Assembly (NCBI RefSeq): GCF_040436345.1
Contig: NC_133223.1
Location: 14,103,113 to 14,167,112 of the forward strand
Source: Pagrus major
Taxonomy: Eukaryota > Chordata > Actinopteri > Spariformes > Sparidae
DNA length: 64,000 nucleotides
Direction: 5' to 3'
This document shows positions 291 through 24,945 of the stretch, one piece after another; the first letter of the stretch is position 1; each line of letters starts with the position of its first letter. The notes under the pieces are model-generated. The model was not told the DNA's origin. It did no database searches and worked only from the letters and a program-made list of their open reading frames with translations. The position numbers and the translations under genes are program-made.

Positions 291-6505
<6,215 letters not shown>

Positions 6506-6694: not shown

Positions 6695-7099
6695 GTGTGT
6701 GTTGGGGGGGGGGGGCAGAGGCGGTTTGAACAGTGTTTACAGGCCAACGACAGAGAGAGCCTGAGGCGGCGGGCGTTTGCTCACATGCCCCCAGGAGTAC
6801 AGAGTGAGCTGGCACGTGATCAGTTTATCAGGGCCCTCTCCCCCACTGAGTTGAGTGTCCAGGTAAAGCTGCAGCACCCTCAGACCTTGCAGGCAGCCTT
6901 GGAGATGGCTGTGGAGAGGGAGAATGTGTGGGGTGTGGCCGGTGCGAGCTGTCAAGATAAGTACTCACCTGCTGTAAGGGCTGCGGTGAGGAGCCCCTCA
7001 GTGGAAGAGAGGCCGGCGTGGGTTGATGAAGTAACTGGACTGTTAAGGGCTGTGTCACTACAGACAGCACGCAGAACACGCCCAGGGCCCAGGGTCTGA
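6695..7099 (+). pseudogene. gag C-terminal fragment of the gypsy-like element
   Basis: An open frame of about 134 codons has the helical, charged character of a retrotransposon capsid tail (FEQCLQANDRESLRRRAFAH, then LQAALEMAVEREN). No CCHC zinc knuckle is visible before the frame ends at 7099. The N-terminal part of gag is missing. Upstream is a run of G at 6706-6715. Confidence 0.6.
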
Positions 7100-7136
7100 A
7101 ACAGATGACTCTGACAACTCAGGCTGGGAGCCAGTT

Positions 7137-7640
7137 GTGGCGGTGGGGCGAGCCTCTGCAGGTGACTCTTGTTACATTCCCGTCACAGTGGAGGGAGTGC
7201 CCTGTTCGGCGCTGGTGGATACAGGGTCGACAGTGACTGTGGTGAGACCGGATGTGGTACCAGAGGGGACACGGCTCGAGCCCACCTTGGTGCGACTGCG
7301 CGCAGTCACAGGTGAGCTGGCTCCTATGAAGGGCAGGAGCGCGCTGTCTGTGACTGTGGGGGGAAGAACGCTGCATCACCCAGCATGGATAGCTGGAGTA
7401 CAGGACCCATGTATCCTGGGTCTTGACTTGTTAAGGGCCGCAGGCTGCCAGCTGGATCTCCTAAGAGGGACAGTGGGTTTTCAAGAGGGGCCAGTTATCA
7501 CCTTGTTCCCCAGGCTTCTTCCTGACACGCTCCCTGACCGTCATGCAGCTAATGCAGTAGAGACTGTTGTTGTCCACTCAGGCAGTTCAAGGTTCTCTGT
7601 TTTGGACTATGTAACGCTCCTGCCACCTTTGCCAGGTTGA
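7137..7640 (+). pseudogene. Retropepsin-like protease of the gypsy-like element, fused by deletion to RT
   Basis: The frame carries the aspartic protease signature ALVDTGSTVTVV, about 25 residues in, and the second block ILGLDLLRAAGC. Both are expected of the Ty3/gypsy protease. The frame then runs into sequence that in another frame encodes GLCNAPATFARL of reverse transcriptase, so the RT fingers and part of the palm have been deleted at about 7605. Confidence 0.8.
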
Positions 7641-7940
7641 TGGACAAGGTGCTGGCTGGTGTACCCTGTCAGCAGTGCCTGGTCTATCTTGATGACATCC
7701 TGGTGCATGGCAGCTCCTTCGAGGCTGCCCTGGGTTCCCTGCGGCGGGTGCTGACAAGAATCAGAGCAGCTGGCCTGAGGCTGCACCCAGACAAGTGTCA
7801 CTTCATGCAACGGGAGGTGTACTTTCTAGGACACAAGGTGGGAGGGGAGGGCATCGGCACCGTGAAGGAGAAGGTGCAGGCCGTCACTGATTGGCCCACC
7901 CCCATCAACCAGAAGCAGCTGAAAAGTTTCTTTGGCTTGG
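7600..7940 (+). pseudogene. Reverse transcriptase fragment (YLDD) of the gypsy-like element
   Basis: Frame containing CNAPATFARLMDKVL, then QCLVYLDDILVH (the polymerase active-site block) and LHPDKCHFMQREVYFLGH, typical gypsy RT motifs. It ends abruptly after KSFFGL, where a deletion brings in the RNase H end. The N-terminal half of RT is missing. Confidence 0.85.
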
Positions 7941-8425
7941 CGGTTAGAGGAGCTCCAGGCTTTCAACTTCAACGTGGAGCACCGGGCTGGGGCACGCCAC
8001 GCAAACGCAGATGCTCTCTCGCGCCGGCCATGTGCAGCAGACGGGTGCCGCTACTGCGAGAAGAGAGAGGCGAGAGAGGGAGAGCTGCGGGGAGAGGAGG
8101 AAGACGGGCCCACCGAGCAACAGGGGGAGGAACTCCTATGCCGAGCTGCAGACTGTGGACATGGCAGAGTGGAGACAACAGCAGGTAGGATGTGGACCTT
8201 CAGCCCGTTCTGCAGTGGGTGGAGGCACAGCAGTGACCACCGTGGGAAGAAGTGGCAGCGCTCTCCACAACGACCAAGGGACTGTGGTCCAAGTTCGATG
8301 CTCTGCGCCTGCATCAGGGCGTGCTGCAGCGGGCATGGAAGGAGCCTGCAACAGGGGAGGAGCGATGGCAGGTGGTGGTCCCCAAGGGCCTGCGTGAGGG
8401 GGTGCTTAAGGCCATGCATGGAGCC
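7941..8425 (+). pseudogene. RNase H tail and linker of the gypsy-like element
   Basis: The frame reads WRLEELQAFNFNVEHRAG followed by HANADALSRRPC, the conserved end of the gypsy RNase H domain. A charged linker and the start of the integrase zinc-binding region follow (frame near KAMHGAQG), where the hAT-like element interrupts at 8426. Frames shift at least once. Confidence 0.75.
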
Positions 8426-9200
8426 CAGGGCTGGACTGGGACCAAAAAATGGCCCTGGCATTTTTGGCCATGGCGGCCCACCATGATTATTTATAATATG
8501 CGGAGGCACACGACATAGCTATACTGTTTATACAAATACACAATTATGCCCACAGTATGACCATATATCCATGTAAAATAAAGAGCTCCTCACCAAAGTC
8601 GCAGAGAGAAAGATAGAGAGAGAGGCAGGAATGTTAATTTCACTAGCCTAGTGTTATTTCTCCGGTTACCTACCAATGGTAAATCATCCATTTCGGCAAA
8701 GCAATGTTTCACTAATATTACATGATAATAATAACTGTAAGCTGTAACACCTGAAAACTGTAACTTTATGGCAAGCTAAAATAACACTGTAAGTTGGACA
8801 CCAAGTCTACTCATAGCATTATTTTTTTTTTTATTATTATTATCAATGGCAAACATAACAGTAATTTTGGCACATTTTGCTGCGTCCACTTGTAGGCTTT
8901 TTAGCCTTTTTTTCTCGTAGCTTCTCTGCGCCCCCCTTGCGCTTTTGTGGTTTGTCCATTTCCACTCGCTTCTCTCCAACTCCGGTCAGCTCAAATGGCA
9001 AAATTTGATCACCTTGGTCAAGGGAGAGGGGAAGGGCGGGCCGAGGAGGGCTGGGAGATTTCATTGGATTGGCCCTATGTCCTTCGAGAAAATCAACCAA
9101 TGGGCCGTCGCGGTCGATAAAAATGATTTATAATATACTTTTTTTGATTAAATTATGACCCAAAAGTGTGCGTCGGCCCACCAGGCATTGCCCGGTGTTA
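8426..9200 (-). mobile_element. hAT-like transposon fragment inserted in the gypsy integrase
   Basis: The left end begins CAGGGCTGGACTGGGACC, a hAT-type terminal repeat seen in fish. The right side ends in AATTATGACCC...GGCCCACCAGGCATTGCCCGG and then stops short, so the last bases of the right terminus are lost. Minus-strand frames near 9100-8776 give MDKPQKRKGGAEKLREKK and, after a frame shift, LKSLQVDAAKCAKITVMF. These resemble the basic N-terminus of fish hAT transposases related to ZMYM/DUF4371 proteins. The rest of the transposase is absent. Confidence 0.68.
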
Positions 9201-9744
9201 CAAAAACTCTCCGCGGCCTCTGCCAGAGTCTCTACTGGGGTCAGTGCAGGAGGGACGTGGAGGATTTTTGCCGCTGCTGTGACCCCTGCACAGCCCGCAA
9301 GGGTCCCTCTGGCCGTTCCCATGCACCACTCCAACAGTTTCCAGTGGGGGGCCGATGGAGTGATGGAGCCTATACGCTCAGCCAGATCAGGCGGCGGAGA
9401 CCGTGGTGGATGCCCTGGTGGAGGGCACGTTCAGCCGTTTTGGGGTGCCGGAGACCATACACTCCGACCAGGGGAGAAATTTTGAGTCCCGGGTGTTTGC
9501 CACCATTTGTGAACGTCTGGGAGCACACAAGACCACTCTTTTGCGGCCCCAGAGTTACGGGTTAGTGGAAAGATTTCACCGCACCTTGGGTCAGCAACTG
9601 GCTATTCTCACTGCACAACATCAGCGGGACTGGGATGACCATCTGTCCCTGGTACTCATGGCGTGTCATTCTGCAGTTCAAGAGACCACATCCCGCACCC
9701 CTCCTCTCCTCATGCGGGGGAGAGAGCTCCGCACACAGGTGTAG
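9200..9744 (+). pseudogene. Integrase fragment of the gypsy-like element
   Basis: After the hAT insertion the frame resumes with VTKTLRGLCQSLYWG and CRCCDPCTARKG, the second half of the HHCC zinc finger. A frame shift follows, then VDALVEGTFSRFGVPETIHSDQGRNFES (the DDE-core Asp block) and YGLVERFHRTLGQQL. The frame ends soon after RGRELR at 9744. The integrase core is only partly present. Confidence 0.82.
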
Positions 9745-10204
9745 TGCCGAGAAGAGACTGCTTGCCGAAAAACGACTGCCCCCGACGGGAACGCGCATCA
9801 GTTCAGAGGAAGTGGGCGTAGGTCTACTACGGGTCAGCTGGCAGACGCAGCACCGAGAGAAATGTGTTTTTTTACTGTGCAGTCCTGTAGCCCAAGTGAA
9901 GAGGCTACGGAACAAGAACGGCGCAGATAAAAAAAAGTAACCTGATGTTTCCATAATGTAGGCTAGTTGTCAACAATTGATGAGGGTAGATGCTTTACCT
10001 TGCCACTTTTATTGCTGTTGTTGTTGTTGTTATCGTTGTTGCAATGTGATTTTACACCACTTTGATCTATGAATAGTCATAATTCAATATCCCTGTTTCA
10101 GTGATTTTATAACGAGGATTAGGAAATCAATGCAGAAAAGAATGCAGGAGTGTTTCCACGTCACATTAGATAGCAATCATATAACACATACTGAGAAATT
10201 AGTA
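9745..10204. other. Unassigned sequence between retrotransposon and satellite
   Basis: No gene, LTR copy or clear repeat is recognised. It contains a short GTT trinucleotide run at about 10015-10032. Confidence 0.4.
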
Positions 10205-10300
10205 AGTGCTATCAGAGGTGGGTAATAACGATTTACATTTACTTCATTACATTTACTTAAGTAACTTTTTGGATAACTTGTACTTTTAAGAGCATAATTA
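10205..10300. mobile_element. End of a small inverted-repeat (hAT-like) element
   Basis: The stretch CAGAGGTGGGTAATAACG followed by TTACATTTACTTAAGTAACT is a motif I recognise from abundant non-autonomous hAT-type elements in fish. The other end is not found and may have been replaced by the satellite. Confidence 0.45.
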
Positions 10301-11263
10301 TGAATACAATAATGCAGTATATATAGAACTGTAGGCTGACTGTAACGGATTGCCTTTACATTCTGCATAACATTCTCTGTGTTTGCCAGGTGCATGTACA
10401 GTGAATTTAGTCAATATCACTCCTTGCAATAAGGGCTTACAGGGTGCAGTCACTTTTCGGCAGGCCCTGCCAAAAAGTGACTGCACCCTGTAACTCTGGA
10501 TTGGGAGGGGTTACATTCTCTGTCTTTTCAGCATTAATAGTAGAGGAAACCAGGTGTATGTACAGTGAATTTGGTCAATATCACTCCTTGCAATAAGGAC
10601 TTACAGGGTGCAGTCACTTTTCGGCAGGCCCTGCCGAAAAGTGACTGCACCCTGTAACTCTGGATTGGGAGGGGTTACATTCTCTGTCTTTTCAGCATTA
10701 ATAGTAGAGGAAACCAGGTGCATGTACAGTGAATTTGGTCAATATCACTCCTTGCAATCCAGAGTTACAGGGTGCAATCACTATTCGGCAGGCCCTGCCA
10801 AAAAGTGACTGCACCCTGTAACTCTGGATTGGGAGAGGTTACATTCTCTGTCTTTTCAGCATTAATAGTAGAGGAAACCAGGTGCATGTACAGTGAATTT
10901 GGTCAATATCACTCCTTGCAATAAGGACTTACAAGGTGCAGTCACTTTTCGGCAGGCCCTGCCGAAAAGTGACTGCACCCTGTAACTCTGGATTGGGAGG
11001 GGTTACATTCTCTGTCTTTTCAGCATTAATAGTAGAGGAAACCAGGTGCATGTACAGTGAATTTGGTCAATATCACTCCTTGCAATCCAGAGTTACAGGG
11101 TGCAGTCACTTTTCGGCAGGGCCTGCCAAAAAGTGACTGCACCCTATATCTCTGGATTGGGAGGGGTTACATTCTCTGTCTTTTCAGCATTAATAGTAGA
11201 GGAAACCAGGTGCATGTACAGTGAATTCGGTCAATATCACTCCTTGCAATCCAGAGTTACAGG

Positions 11264-12551
11264 GTGCAGTCACTTTTCGGCAGGGCCTGCCAAAAAGTGA
11301 CTGCACCCTGTAACTCTGGATTGCAGGTTTCCAGAGTTACAGGGTGCAGTCACTTTTCGGCAGGCCCTGCCAAAAAGTGACTGCACCCTATAACTCTGGA
11401 TTGGGAGGGGTTACATTCTCTGTCTTTTCAGCATTAATAGTAGAGGAAACCGGGTGCATGTACAGTGAATTTGGTCAATATCACTCCTTGCAATCCAGAG
11501 TTACAGGGTGCAGTCACTTTTCGGCAGGCCCTGCCAAAATCTGACTGCACCCTGTAACTCTGGATTGGGAGGGGTTACATTCTCTGTCTTTTCAGCATTA
11601 ATAGTAGAGGAAACCAGGTGCATGTACAGTGAATTTGGTCAATATCACTCCTTGCAATCCAGAGTTACAGGGTGCAGTCACTTTTCGGCAGGCCCTGCCA
11701 AAAAGTGACTGCACCCTGTAACTCTGGATTGGGAGAGGTTACATTCTCTGTCTTTTCAGCATTAATAGTAGAGGAAACCAGGTGCATGTACAGTGAATTT
11801 GGTCAATATCACTCCTTGCAATAAGGACTTACAGGGTGCAGTCACTGTTCGGCAGGCCCTGCCGAAAAGTGACTGCACCCTGTAACTCTGGATTGGGAGG
11901 GGTTACATTCTCTGTCTTTTCAGCATTAATAGTAGAGGAAACCAGGTGCATGTACAGTGAATTTGGTCAATATCAATCCTTGCAATCCAGAATTACAGGT
12001 AACTGTAACATGTACAGTGAATTTGGTCAATATCACTCCTTGCAATCCAGAGTTACAGGGTGCAGTCACTTTTCGGCAGGCCCTGCCAAAATCTGACTGC
12101 ACCCTGTAACTCTGGATTGGGAGGGGTTACATTCTCTGTCTTTTCAGCATTAATAGTAGAGGAAACCAGGTGCATGTACAGTGAATTTGGTCAATATCAC
12201 TCCTTGCAATCCAGAGTTACAGGGTGCAGTCACTTTTCGGCAGGCCCTGCCAAAAAGTGACTGCACCCTGTAACTCTGGATTGGGAGGGGTTACATTCTC
12301 TGTCTTTTCAGCATTAATAGTAGAGGAAACCAGGTGCATGTACAGTGAATTTGGTCAATATCACTCCTTGCAATAAGGACTTACAGGGTGCAGTCACTTT
12401 TCGGCAGCCCCTGCCGAAAAGTGACTGCACCCTGTAACTCTGGATTGGGAGGGGTTACATTCTCTGTCTTTTCAGCATTAATAGTAGAGGAAACCAGGTG
12501 CATGTACAGTGAATTCGGTCAATATCACTCCTTGCAATCCAGAGTTACAGG
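11264..12551 (+). repeat. Higher-order satellite unit of 1288 bases (first of a series)
   Basis: From 11264 the spacing pattern is 80, 164x3, 224, 164x3 (sum 1288). The next block from 12552 is 80, 164x3, 224, 164x2 (1124). Then come 13676-14575 (80, 164x5; 900), 14576-15043 (80, 224, 164; 468) and 15044-15287 (80, 164; 244). Shared variant bases, such as AAAATCTGAC after the 80-base unit, support duplication of whole blocks. Confidence 0.85.
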
Positions 12552-15507
12552 GTGCAGTCACTTTTCGGCAGGGCCTGCCAAAAAGTGACTGCACCCTGTA
12601 ACTCTGGATTGCAGGGTTCCAGAGTTACAGGGTGCAGTCACTTTTCGGCAGGCCCTGCCAAAAAGTGACTGCACCCTATAACTCTGGATTGGGAGGGGTT
12701 ACATTCTCTGTCTTTTCAGCATTAATAGTAGAGGAAACCAGGTGCATGTACAGTGAATTTGGTCAATATCACTCCTTGCAATCCAGAGTTACAGGGTGCA
12801 GTCACTTTTCGGCAGGCCCTGCCAAAATCTGACTGCACCCTGTAACTCTGGATTGGGAGGGGTTACATTCTCTGTCTTTTCAGCATTAATAGTAGAGGAA
12901 ACCAGGTGCATGTACAGTGAATTTGGTCAATATCACTCCTTGCAATCCAGAGTTACAGGGTGCAGTCACTTTTCGGCAGGCCCTGCCAAAAAGTGACTGC
13001 ACCCTGTAACTCTGGATTGGGAGAGGTTACATTCTCTGTCTTTTCAGCATTAATAGTAGAGGAAACCAGGTGCATGTACAGTGAATTTGGTCAATATCAC
13101 TCCTTGCAATAAGGACTTACAGGGTGCAGTCACTGTTCGGCAGGCCCTGCCGAAAAGTGACTGCACCCTGTAACTCTGGATTGGGAGGGGTTACATTCTC
13201 TGTCTTTTCAGCATTAATAGTAGAGGAAACCAGGTGCATGTACAGTGAATTTGGTCAATATCAATCCTTGCAATCCAGAATTACAGGTAACTGTAACATG
13301 TACAGTGAATTTGGTCAATATCACTCCTTGCAATCCAGAGTTACAGGGTGCAGTCACTTTTCGGCAGGCCCTGCCAAAATCTGACTGCACCCTGTAACTC
13401 TGGATTGGGAGGGGTTACATTCTCTGTCTTTTCAGCATTAATAGTAGAGGAAACCAGGTGCATGTACAGTGAATTTGGTCAATATCACTCCTTGCAATCC
13501 AGAGTTACAGGGTGCAGTCACTTTTCGGCAGGCCCTGCCAAAAAGTGACTGCACCCTGTAACTCTGGATTGGGAGGGGTTACATTCTCTGTCTTTTCAGC
13601 ATTAATAGTAGAGGAAACCAGGTGCATGTACAGTGAATTCGGTCAATATCACTCCTTGCAATCCAGAGTTACAGGGTGCAGTCACTTTTTGGCAGGGCCT
13701 GCCAAAAAGTGACTGCACCCTGTAACTCTGGATTGCAGGGTTCCAGAGTTACAGGGTGCAGTCACTTTTCGGCAGGCCCTGCCAAAAAGTGACTGCACCC
13801 TATAACTCTGGATTGGGAGGGGTTACATTCTCTGTCTTTTCAGCATTAATAGTAGAGGAAACCAGGTGCGTGTACAGTGAATTTGGTCAATATCACTCCT
13901 TGCAATCCAGAGTTACAGGGTGCAGTCACTTTTCGGCAGGCCCTGCCAAAATCTGACTGCACCCTGTAACTCTGGATTGGGAGGGGTTACATTCTCTGTC
14001 TTTTCAGCATTAATAGTAGAGGAAACCAGGTGCATGTACAGTGAATTTGGTCAATATCACTCCTTGCAATCCAGAGTTACAGGGTGCAGTCACTTTTCGG
14101 CAGGCCCTGCCAAAATCTGACTGCACCCTGTAACTCTGGATTGGGAGGGGTTACATTCTCTGTCTTTTCAGCATTAATAGTAGAGGAAACCAGGTGCATG
14201 TACAGTGAATTTGGTCAATATCACTCCTTGCAATCCAGAGTTACAGGGTGCAGTCACTTTTCGGCAGGCCCTGCCAAAAAGTGACTGCACCCTGTAACTC
14301 TGGATTGGGAGAGGTTACATTCTCTGTCTTTTCAGCATTAATAGTAGAGGAAACCAGGTGCATGTACAGTGAATTTGGTCAATATCACTCCTTGCAATAA
14401 GGACTTACAGGGTGCAGTCACTGTTCGGCAGGCCCTGCCGGAAAGTGACTGCACCCTGTAACTCTGGATTGGGAGGGGTTACATTCTCTGTCTTTTCAGC
14501 ATTAATAGTAGAGGAAACCAGGTGCATGTACAGTGAATTTGGTCAATATCACTCCTTGCAATCCAGAGTTACAGGGTGCAGTCACTTTTCGGCAGGGCCT
14601 GCCAAAAAGTGACTGCACCCTGTAACTCTGGATTGCAGGGTTCCAGAGTTACAGGGTGCAGTCACTTTTCGGCAGGCCCTGCCAAAAAGTGACTGCACCC
14701 TATAACTCTGGATTGGGAGGGGTTACATTCTCTGTCTTTTCAGCATTAATAGTAGAGGAAACCAGGTGCATGTACAGTGAATTTGGTCAATATCAATCCT
14801 TGCAATCCAGAGTTACAGGTAACTGTAACATGTACAGTGAATTTGGTCAATATCACTCCTTGCAATCCAGAGTTACAGGGTGCAGTCACTTTTCGGCAGG
14901 CCCTGCCAAAATCTGACTGCACCCTGTAACTCTGGATTGGGAGGGGTTACATTCTCTGTCTTTTCAGCATTAATAGTAGAGGAAACCAGGTGCATGTACA
15001 GTGAATTTGGTCAATATCACTCCTTGCAATCCAGAGTTACAGGGTGCAGTCACTTTTCGGCAGGCCCTGCCAAAAAGTGACTGCACCCTGTAACTCTGGA
15101 TTGCAGGGTTCCAGAGTTACAGGGTGCAGTCACTTTTCGGCAGGCCCTGCCAAAAAGTGACTGCACCCTATAACTCTGGATTGGGAGGGGTTACATTCTC
15201 TGTCTTTTCAGCATTAATAGTAGAGGAAACCAGGTGCATGTACAGTGAATTTGGTCAATATCACTCCTTGCAATCCAGAGTTACAGGGTGCAGTCACTTT
15301 TCGGCAGGCCCTGCCAAAAAGTGACTGCACCCTGTAACTCTGGATTGCAGGGTTCTAGAGTTACAGGGTGCAGTCACTTTTCGGCAGGCCCTGCCAAAAA
15401 GTGACTGCACCCTGTAACTCTGGATTGGGAGGGGTTACATTCTCTGTCTTTTCAGCATTAATAGTAGAGGAAACCAGGTGCATGTACAGTGAATTTGGTC
15501 AATATCA

Positions 15508-16452
15508 GCTTTCAACACCATCATCCCAGACAAGCTGGCGCTGAAGCTACACGCCGTGGGTCTGCCTGCGTCACTGTGCCACTGGATCAGAGACTTCCTC
15601 ACCAACAGGCCTCAGGTGGTGAGAATAGGGAACAAAACATCATCCCCTCTGGTCCTCAGCACGGGCACGCCACAGGGGTGTGTGCTCAGCCCAGCCCTCT
15701 TCACCCTGTTCACTCACGACTGTGCTGCCATCCACCCCACCAACACAGTCGTGAAGTTCGCGGACGACACTACAGTAGTGGGCCTAATCTCAGAGAACAA
15801 CGAGACCCACTACAGAGAGGAGATACACCAGCTCACACAGTGGTGTTCAGCCAACAACCTGGTGCTGAACACAGGGAAGACCAAGGAGGTCATTGTGGAC
15901 TTCAGGAGGTCCAGGAAGACTGATCACGCCCCCCTCCTCATGGACGGAGAAGTGGTGGAGCGTGTGGACAACATCAAGTTCCTGGGCCTCCACATCACAT
16001 CTGACCTCTCCTGGTCCATGAACACCTGCCGCCTGGTGAAGAAGGCCCAACAAAGGCTCTTCTTCCTCAGGAAACTGAAACGGGCTGGACTCTTCTCTCG
16101 GTTGCTCGTGAACTTCTACAGAGCAACAATTGAAAGCATCCTCTGCCACAGTGTGACAGTGTGGTATGGCAGCTGCACGGCACAGGAGAGGAAACAACTG
16201 GCACGGGTGGTTAAAACTGCACAGGGCATCGTGGGCTGCCCCCTCCCTGACTTGGACTCTATATATGCAGGCCGAGTCAAGAAGAGGGCAAGAGCCATCG
16301 CCATGGACCCCAGCCACCCGGGCCACAGACTGTTTGTACCGCTTCCATCAGGAAAGCGGTACAGGAACATCCGCACCAACACCAATAGACTGAGGGACAG
16401 CTTCTTCCCCAGAGCTGTCAAAGCTATCACCCCCTGCACTGCAGGAAAATAA
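15508..16452 (+). pseudogene. LINE reverse transcriptase C-terminal part, frame open to its stop
   Basis: The frame is open from the truncation point to the TAA at 16450-16452 (314 codons) with no lesion. It starts [10 protein letters not shown] and contains [13 protein letters not shown] and [10 protein letters not shown], the reverse transcriptase blocks with the catalytic Asp pair. The thumb and C-terminal region follow ([35 protein letters not shown]) and it ends with [20 protein letters not shown]. The endonuclease and N-terminal RT are absent because of 5' truncation. An undamaged frame suggests a recent insertion. Confidence 0.92.
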
Positions 16453-16747
16453 ACTATAAGCTGCTGCACACTGCACTTTGTCCAACAGACTATTTAACTG
16501 CACCTTAGTGTATATATTACCACCCAATCGCACCAAATGTATATATATATATATACAAACATATGTATATACATATACAGTTCTTATGTACATACTCTCT
16601 TATTATATTTATACATATTCTATTTTTTTGTTGCATGCTCTTTCTTATTTTACTATTTTATTATCTTTTTACACGGGGGTTGCAATGGAAATTTCATTGA
16701 CATGTTAATGTCCAATGACAATAAAGGCAATCTTGAATCTTGAATCT
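15508..16747 (+). mobile_element. 5'-truncated L2/Rex1-type LINE inserted in the satellite
   Basis: The insertion interrupts a satellite monomer. The 5-base target duplication TATCA lies at 15503-15507 and 16748-16752. The element begins inside the reverse transcriptase gene and ends with AATAAAGGCAATCTTGAATCTTGAATCT, a short tandem-repeat 3' tail instead of poly(A), as in the CR1/L2/Rex1 group. The 3' UTR includes an ATATAT-rich patch (16538-16580). Confidence 0.93.
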
Positions 16748-17711
16748 TATCACTCCTTGCAATAAGGACTTACAGGGTGCAGTCACTTTTCGGCAGGGCC
16801 TGCCGAAAAGTGACTGCACCCTGTAACTCTGGATTGGGAGGGGTTACATTCTCTGTCTTTTCAGCATTAATAGTAGAGGAAACCAGGTGCATGTACAGTG
16901 AATTTGGTCAATATCACTCCTTGCAATAAGGACTTACAGGGTGCAGTCACTGTTCGGCAGGCCCTGCCGAAAAGTGACTGCACCCTGTAACTGGATTGGG
17001 AGGGGTTACATTCTCTGTCTTTTCAGCATTAATAGTAGAGGAAACCAGGTGCATGTACAGTGAATTTGGTCAATATCACTCCTTGCAATCCAGAGTTACA
17101 GGTAACTGTAACATGTACAGTGAATTTGGTCAATATCACTCCTTGCAATCCAGAGTTACAGGGTGCAGTCACTTTTCGGCAGGCCCTGCCAAAATCTGAC
17201 TGCATCCTGTAACTCTGGATTGGGAGGGGTTACCTTCTATATCTTTTCAGCATTAATAGTAGAGGAAACCAGGTGCATGTACAGTGAATTTGGTCAATAT
17301 CACTCCTTGCAATCCAGAGTTACAGGGTGCAGTCACTTTTCGGCAGGCCCTGCCAAAAAGTGACTGCACCCTATAACTCTGGATTGGGAGGGGTTACATT
17401 CTCTGTCTTTTCAGCATTAATAGTAGAGGAAACCAGGTGCATGTACAGTGAATTTGGTCAATATCACTCCTTGCAATAAGGACTTACAGGGTGCAGTCAC
17501 TTTTCGGCAGGGCCTGCCGAAAAGTGACTGCACCCTATAACTCTGGATTGGGAGGGGTTACATTCTCTGTCTTTTCAGCATTAATAGTAGAGGAAACCAG
17601 GTGCATGTACAGTGAATTTGGTCAATATCACTCCTTGCAATAAGGACTTACAGGGTGCAGTCACTTTTCGGCAGACCCTGCCAAAAACTGACTGCACCCT
17701 GTAACTCCTGT

Positions 17712-18030
17712 CAATCTGCCACATCACACAAAGATATTTTTAGGCAATGGTCTTTCAATGCTCTGGGGGCCCTTCATGTTTCAACACAATACCTCCATGC
17801 ACAAAGACAGACCCACGTTTTTTTTTTTTTTTTTTTTGTTTCTTATTTTAGTGTTTTAGAACTTGACCTCAGCCCCATCCAACACCTTTGGGATGAATTG
17901 GAAACTACGCCAGCATCAGCGCTTAACATCACTTAATGCTTTTGTAGCTGAATGGAAATGAGTCCCAGCAGGCAGGTCCTTAAATCTAATGGAAAGCCTC
18001 CACTGTTATAGGAGCATAGTAACATTCAAC
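17712..18030 (+). mobile_element. Tc1-like transposase 3' fragment bordering the satellite
   Basis: Plus-strand translation in broken frames gives matches to the end of a second Tc1 family: a CHI-T..YF block, FNTIPPCTK, LDLSPIQHLWDELE (the DDE catalytic Glu region) and NAFVAEW. A 20-base T run (about 17817-17836) and indels break the frame. Only the last third of the gene remains. Confidence 0.72.
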
Positions 18031-18374
18031 TTATTTTGAATGAGATATTAATAATCATATGGGTGTAATGAGTGAGTCTTCACATATTGTTGCCCAAAAA
18101 ATGCATGTAAAGAGTTACATTTCTATGGCCATTTATAATTATTATATATAGGAAAGAAATGTATAACACAGCTGATGATGTGGTAATACTGACTGAATTC
18201 ATTTTTTATGTAGAAATATTGCTCTCTTTATGACACTGTAATGATGGATATTAATGTTTTGGAATCCAATATTTTTTGCAATAATATATGTTTCATTTCT
18301 AAAGTTTAAACATTATTTAACAGGTGCATAAGAATTTATTCTGTTAAAGATGAAAATCATATTGAGGGAACTGA

Positions 18375-18725
18375 CAGGCAGGGGTGGGGGGGTTATTTTG
18401 AAAATGTATCCCGATACAGTTACAACCTCTGAAAAAATGCAGTCTAACACAATCCAAGTAAGACAAAGATGACTTTAATTTAACTCGAGTGATATTGTGT
18501 GAGACACGTGGAGGGTTGTTATGTGTGCACATGTGAATGGTTACACACTGGTATATCATGCTTCATTTTAAAATTGTAATCCTGTTAATAATCCTCTTCA
18601 CTGAATGTATTTTAATCTAATTACATCTTTTTTCGGTAACTTCACCAGAATACAGTTACCTTTTTTAAAAATCCTGATTACATTCACATGTACATGTATT
18701 CCATTACTCCCCAAGCCTACTGACA
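18375..18725. mobile_element. Non-autonomous hAT-like inverted-repeat element
   Basis: The ends GGCAGGGGTGGGGGGGTTATTTTG and, inverted, CAGTAGGCTTGGGGAGTAATGG form imperfect terminal repeats. The interior matches a layout I recognise from fish elements with TAATC/GTAACTGTATTC arrays near the right end (about 18600-18720). No coding capacity. Confidence 0.5.

Positions 18726-22121: not shown

Positions 22122-24945
<2,824 letters not shown>

Follow-up and report, generated by a model that had tools for sequence, protein, structure and literature searches.

The tandem satellite of this stretch of the Pagrus major genome is probably the tandem core of a DNA transposon of the foldback type, one that is not autonomous. 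The element consists of an inverted repeat of ~713 bases, a number of units of 163+1 bases and the same repeat inverted, and it is dispersed on 21 of the 25 contigs. Under this explanation, which we regard as probable with its mechanism included, a transposase encoded elsewhere would recognise the motif TGCCGAAAANNGACTGC of the inverted repeat and unit, the unit would have its origin in that repeat's inner end, units would multiply by unequal exchange or slippage, perhaps with the assistance of the palindrome, and arrays that lose their inverted repeats would persist as free-standing satellite. Every unit carries this motif at its two edges, and the inverted repeat has it at its inner end as well as at the outer terminus.

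Structure of the window copy

The window, by which we mean the whole 64,000-base stretch that was analysed, holds a copy with a complete left repeat and an absent right repeat. Its parts and its insertion host are as follows.

6695..9737, + strand: insertion host, a Ty3/gypsy-like retrotransposon remnant outside the element (aspartyl protease and RVT_1 matches above the Pfam cut-off; capsid and integrase matches below it)
9738..10385, + strand: left terminal inverted repeat, main part, 648 bases (~93-100% identity to the elements of other loci, on both strands)
9738..9779, + strand: outer terminus, two tandem copies of the motif TGCCGARAANNGACTGC (42-mer with 81 genome matches at ≤3 mismatches; reversed-pattern control 0)
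10386..10464, + strand: inner end of the left inverted repeat, closing with the inverted motif GCAGTCACTTTTCGGCAGG at the first palindrome centre (10465)
10465..17707, + strand: array of 163+1 base units with 39 palindrome centres, interrupted by a LINE (from centre spacing and unit alignment)
15508..16747, + strand: LINE fragment inside the array, foreign to the element (RVT_1 match at 15556-16452; bordered by a 5-base duplication, TATCA, seen by eye on both sides)
17707..17708, no strand: truncated right end, where the array stops within the right arm of a palindrome, without a right inverted repeat (no match to window 9738-10385 right of the array)

A 22-base palindrome arm matched 39 times within 7.3 kb at ≤4 mismatches, which is far beyond chance, and the corresponding centres lie at 10465-17676. 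Given that 27 of the 38 centre-to-centre intervals measure exactly 164 bases (the others being 80 bases in six cases, 224 in three, 222 in one and 1409 in one), the tandem satellite reported in an earlier note on this DNA is real. Its description of a 163-base element between palindrome centres, with one base between copies, likewise holds, as units cut at the centres comprise 163 bases plus one centre base (C or G), but the single 37-base arm length that it gave does not: arms are mostly 28 bases long with AAGGAC on the left side and 32-40 bases with CCAGAG on the left side. The whole feature is larger than the extent of 10350 to 17708 given there and begins at 9738 with the long inverted repeat. 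The 27 units of exactly 164 bases have a mean identity of 96.6%, and in 21 of them the unit start reads CCTGCCA, not CCTGCCG; across loci it is the G form that prevails (273 of 319 units). Judging from the spacings, there is also a higher-order pattern between 11366 and 14678, whose blocks measure 1288, 1124 and 900 bases and all close with an 80-base short unit. No Rfam family was found at the gathering threshold in window 9500-18500.

Arrays, inverted repeats and whole elements across the genome

A search for the unit in the window's own genome (786 Mb, 25 contigs), in which 40 of 352 candidates were scored so that counts are lower bounds, gave at least 489 unit matches in at least 32 places. 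From these we compared 21 arrays, namely the window and 20 loci of 9.5-10 kb. After the arrays had been brought into a common orientation, many of their edges led into one common sequence, which stood as such on the left side and as the reverse complement on the other. This long inverted repeat, counted with window 9738-10385 as the probe and with partial matches down to 46 bases accepted, adjoins both sides in nine of the 21 arrays, one side in nine and neither side in three (L017, L019 and L023, the last of which keeps the tip motif at its right). The repeat is ~713 bases long, and the ends of the element are GGTGTAGTGCCGAGAAGAGACTGC. Near-complete copies (n = 47) have a mean pairwise identity of 98.4%, and within an element the left repeat is scarcely closer to the right one than repeats of different elements are to each other: three same-element pairs stand at 98.9%, and 13-16% of between-element pairs are equally close.

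The outer terminus GGTGTAGTGCCGAGAAGAGACTGCTTGCCGAAAAACGACTGC occurs 81 times in the genome at ≤3 mismatches, on 21 of 25 contigs, compared with 0 occurrences of the reversed control; a looser form occurs 125 times at ≤1 mismatch, again with 0 for the control. We read 13 paired-terminus elements (8 whole, 5 by their ends) and 39 further termini. Each of the 8 whole elements matches the inverted repeat at its two ends and holds unit-derived sequence in between, and in the largest of them, L036 (6284 bases), such matches span the element end to end. Among the 36 further termini read over 900-1100 bases, 35 enter the inverted repeat and units directly, and the 36th, at L062, is broken after 57 bases by another foldback, beyond which the inverted repeat and units resume; the remaining three were read over ~200 bases only. 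The number of units per element runs from 0, as in L030, to more than 20, and L029 is without a complete unit. The family therefore shows what is expected of foldback elements, that is, long and nearly identical terminal inverted repeats, tandem subrepeats with variable length, and dispersed, precise ends (81 termini, control 0), with the qualification that the units lie between, not within, the inverted repeats.

Could this architecture be an assembly artefact, with tandem repeats collapsed or misjoined? The flanks of L030 might be cited for it, being reverse-complementary over the nearest 30 of 30 bases and at 136 of 200 positions ungapped, so that the element lies between inverted copies of its own flank. 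The same architecture nevertheless recurs at many independent places with different flanks, which makes an artefact extremely improbable. L030 (G000:C11:16560892-16562475) occupies the exact midpoint of a larger inverted repeat whose sequence is of the CTCGAGATAACG type.

Neither a transposase nor an autonomous copy of the satellite-bearing element was found, and transposase-driven mobility is for this reason something that we only infer. Two candidates were set aside. L062, considered as a possible autonomous copy, is a satellite-bearing element interrupted by a foldback with 31-base minisatellite arms, and an open frame with HTH_Tnp_4 and DDE_Tnp_4 matches at L016:7331-8338, ~0.7 kb from a miniature inverted-repeat element (MITE) at an element tip, is a single case as a helper transposase; ends of its own were looked for and not found. 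This second, different foldback, seen in L062 and L067 (G000:C21:14646500-14655569) and nested there in the inverted repeat, consists of inverted arrays of the 31-base minisatellite GTGCCACTG.. and, by eye, is bordered on both sides by CGGGAACGC.

A motif common to terminus, inverted repeat and unit

The sequences TGCCGAAAAACGACTGCCCCC within the terminus and TGCCGAAAAGTGACTGCACCC within the palindrome arm are equal at 18 of 21 positions, a value as high as which was seen in 0 of 20,000 shuffles, and the inner end of the inverted repeat closes with the same motif, inverted. Of 57 inner ends in the fetched loci, 42 terminate at a palindrome centre and 15 elsewhere; the centres are thus natural joints, much as the earlier note had supposed. 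An alignment of the unit with the inverted repeat shows shared blocks at their inner ends, of about 36 and about 21 identical bases. Against the inverted repeat, the unit's outer half scores 21, which is not above shuffles (maximum 25 in 200 shuffles), so that derivation of the whole unit from the inverted repeat is unproven.

These data bear on whether a transposon instead captured a pre-existing satellite, its palindromic motif being coincidental or later homogenised. Capture would sit well with the three of 21 arrays that have no inverted repeat, but against it stand the 36 and 21 identical bases that unit ends have in common with the inner end of the inverted repeat and the 42 of 57 inner ends that meet a unit at a palindrome centre, and we consider it quite improbable. 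The same three arrays, together with the 15 of 57 inner ends that lie off-centre, are evidence against the foldback-array explanation that we prefer, and so is the small margin by which same-element repeats exceed between-element ones in identity.

Further information on how arrays change comes from L031 and L034, which represent one insertion, present on two contigs through a recent duplication, with flanks identical at 199 of 200 positions on each side and matching inverted repeats 99.84% identical. One copy has one unit and the other three, a length difference of 329 bases, and thus unit number changes in place by whole units. By eye, a private variant occurs in all three units and also in the inverted repeat next to them, which indicates that units and inverted repeat can exchange variants. 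Divergence across 319 exact-length units is 2.5% within loci and 3.0% between them; local amplification is real but modest beside the variety already present.

Solitary MITEs and the mobile unit

The earlier note had read the monomer as a MITE fused head to tail, and this reading is partly right. The motif at the unit edges is indeed that of a real transposon terminus, but the 163-base monomer does not appear as the mobile unit, since monomers stand between two ~713-base inverted repeats. The note had also suggested a search for solitary 163-base copies and for an autonomous relative sharing the termini, and had taken a genome with tandem copies only, lacking any solitary element or related transposase termini, as refuting it; this outcome did not occur. 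Solitary MITEs whose termini are related are present. A variant terminus was examined at seven places (L087-L093). Complete MITEs stand at L087 (151 bases), L088 (145 bases) and L089 (139 bases); L090, L091 and L092 look complete by eye, and L093 has one end only. L088 and L090 are probably one insertion in duplicated sequence, as their flanks are nearly identical. A further MITE, of 127 bases, lies at L016:6501-6627, directly against the right tip of a large element and without an intervening base. By eye, the similarity of the MITEs to the large element covers roughly their first 60 bases, and they are without the interior of the satellite unit. Those at L087-L092 and L016:6501-6627 also carry, by eye, 1-4 TTAGGG-like (telomere-type) repeats mid-element and, close to one end, additional copies of an 18-base motif in varying number.

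If the 163-base MITE were itself mobile, the satellite would have arisen by head-to-tail fusion, and the long inverted repeats would be later additions or mere neighbours. Such a history would account for the terminus motif on the unit edges, the solitary MITEs of 127-151 bases with related termini and the contact between MITE and element tip at L016. It would not account for the inverted repeat adjoining 18 of 21 arrays, for the lack of the terminal GGTGTAG in units or for MITEs without the unit interior; moreover, no solitary 163-base unit was seen in the genome search, in which 40 of 352 candidates were scored, so that its absence is not established. On balance we find this history unlikely.

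Target sites and end joining

The two bases preceding 104 ends, a count that includes a few ends from duplicated insertions, are CC in 62 cases and CA in 32, together 94, against a window background of 12% for CC and CA combined, and the next two bases are GG in 98 of 104. The target is CMKG. Among 24 end pairs, the 4-base flanks are equal in 13 (11 CCGG, one CCGT at L033 and one GTGG at L036). Nine of the 11 unequal pairs have GG as the innermost left bases and CC as the innermost right bases (L010, L015, L020, L029, L031, L032, L034, L035 and L092, of which L031 and L034 are one insertion); L028 and the element at C11:21.7M are without that pattern. The CCGG pairs are compatible both with a 4-base duplication and with none, those of L033 and L036 favour a 4-base duplication, and the CA/TG, CC/TG and CA/GG pairs exclude plain target-site duplication. 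CpG decay is unlikely as the source of the CCGG variants, because these are C-to-A and G-to-T. Plain target-site duplication fits only part of the end pairs. A plain lack of duplication, our first reading of the flanks, is not compatible with the end pairs taken together either. Direct repeats of 8 or 9 bases at the ends were found in 0 of 24 pairs at any boundary shift tried, and comparison of joined flanks with the fetched locus DNA gave no empty insertion site.

Helitrons have no inverted ends, insert between A and T and carry a 3' hairpin with CTRR. These are not the features of the present element, whose ends are perfectly inverted and whose flanks are CMKG.

We also considered a mover of another kind, a recombinase that makes no target-site duplication (a tyrosine recombinase or a Spy-like enzyme). 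Its attraction lies in the nine of 24 pairs that differ in the flanking 4 bases while the innermost GG and CC stay constant. The equal 4-base flanks in 13 of 24 pairs argue the other way, with the reservation that the 11 CCGG pairs fit both models, as do CCGT twice at L033 and GTGG twice at L036, which are what a 4-base duplication would give; nor was a recombinase gene found. The Spy group of the PHIS superfamily is described as making no target-site duplication and having a strong target preference, with AAATTT as its target and, in these accounts, a distribution in invertebrates only (PMC4482050, PMC9179366), whereas here the target is CMKG, with 94 of 104 ends after CC or CA. An AAATTT target without duplication is thus not what we observe, and a recombinase of this kind seems to us a decidedly poor candidate.

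A different route to the satellite would start from the target preference itself. Ends of the form GG..CC inserted at CMKG would recreate the target at both tips, copies could stack tip to tip, the joints could shrink to short palindromes and the stack could then expand, so that a self-targeting family would build its own satellite; each satellite joint is then predicted to keep a transposase-binding site. We saw one tip-to-tip event, the MITE at the right tip of the large element at L016. We hold this route to be unlikely; if it were true, the mixed ends, with a 4-base duplication in some copies and GG/CC supplied by the element in others, would suggest strand joining of an unusual kind.

Relation to known elements

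The foldback Tetris of Drosophila virilis, whose internal tandem repeats (the TIR-220 satellite) also form longer satellite-like arrays, is, from its description in PMC4079207, the nearest known counterpart of the foldback-array element proposed here. The two have in common long inverted repeats, a repeat partly like the outer inverted repeat, the lack of a known transposase and a difference in array length between allelic copies (PMC4079207). Compared with Tetris as described there, however, the units here run in one direction between the inverted repeats, not within each of them; the target is CMKG, with 0 of 24 pairs showing the 8 or 9 bases of direct repeat that could correspond to the 8-10 base duplications of Tetris and MULE-like foldbacks; and a palindrome stands at each unit joint. 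Galileo of Drosophila buzzatii, again compared by description, likewise has inverted repeats with internal tandem repeats that hold extra transposase-binding sites (via PMC4079207); its transposase is known, whereas in our case binding would follow from the repeated motifs. In Xenopus, according to a review (PMC12628747), miDNA4 and Xstir are likewise non-autonomous inverted-repeat MITEs with a variable number of satellite monomers, for which end loss was proposed to leave plain satellite, as we propose here. That review treats miDNA4 as a Tc1/mariner-type element with a captured repeat (PMC12628747); here unit and terminus have a common motif and the inverted repeats are ~700 bases long.

Literature on fish foldbacks with tandem repeats, on 164-base fish satellites with inverted repeats and on duplication-less fish MITEs, mostly in open papers, contained nothing that we recognised as the element, and the family may be catalogued elsewhere; a search by sequence words gave no relevant paper. 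A scan of viral contigs gave 0 matches in one run and 4 in another, of which 3 share one sequence and were judged by eye to be chance, and a scan of the genome contigs collection gave 0 matches.

A single genome displays zero-unit, few-unit, many-unit and end-less forms of one element, and the recent change of unit number in a duplicated insertion makes the step from transposon to satellite datable and directly testable outside Drosophila. What looks like a stand-alone satellite would be cargo that moves with a transposon and is able to grow or shrink in place, and satellite catalogues may accordingly list the cores of mobile elements as stand-alone repeats. Given a known transposase, the odd target-site pattern would also inform on strand joining.

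Surroundings of the window copy

The right flank of the array (window 17708-18010) looks like coding sequence for the C-terminal part of a Tc1-type transposase. On the other side, a Tc1/Sleeping Beauty-type element occupies window 3250-5790 (HTH_SB match), with what appears by eye to be another insertion at ~4330-5410. Neurexophilin-family coding stretches (PF06312) lie on the minus strand at window 1644-2375 and 23794-24567; these are apparently tandem gene copies ~22 kb apart, one on each side of the satellite element.
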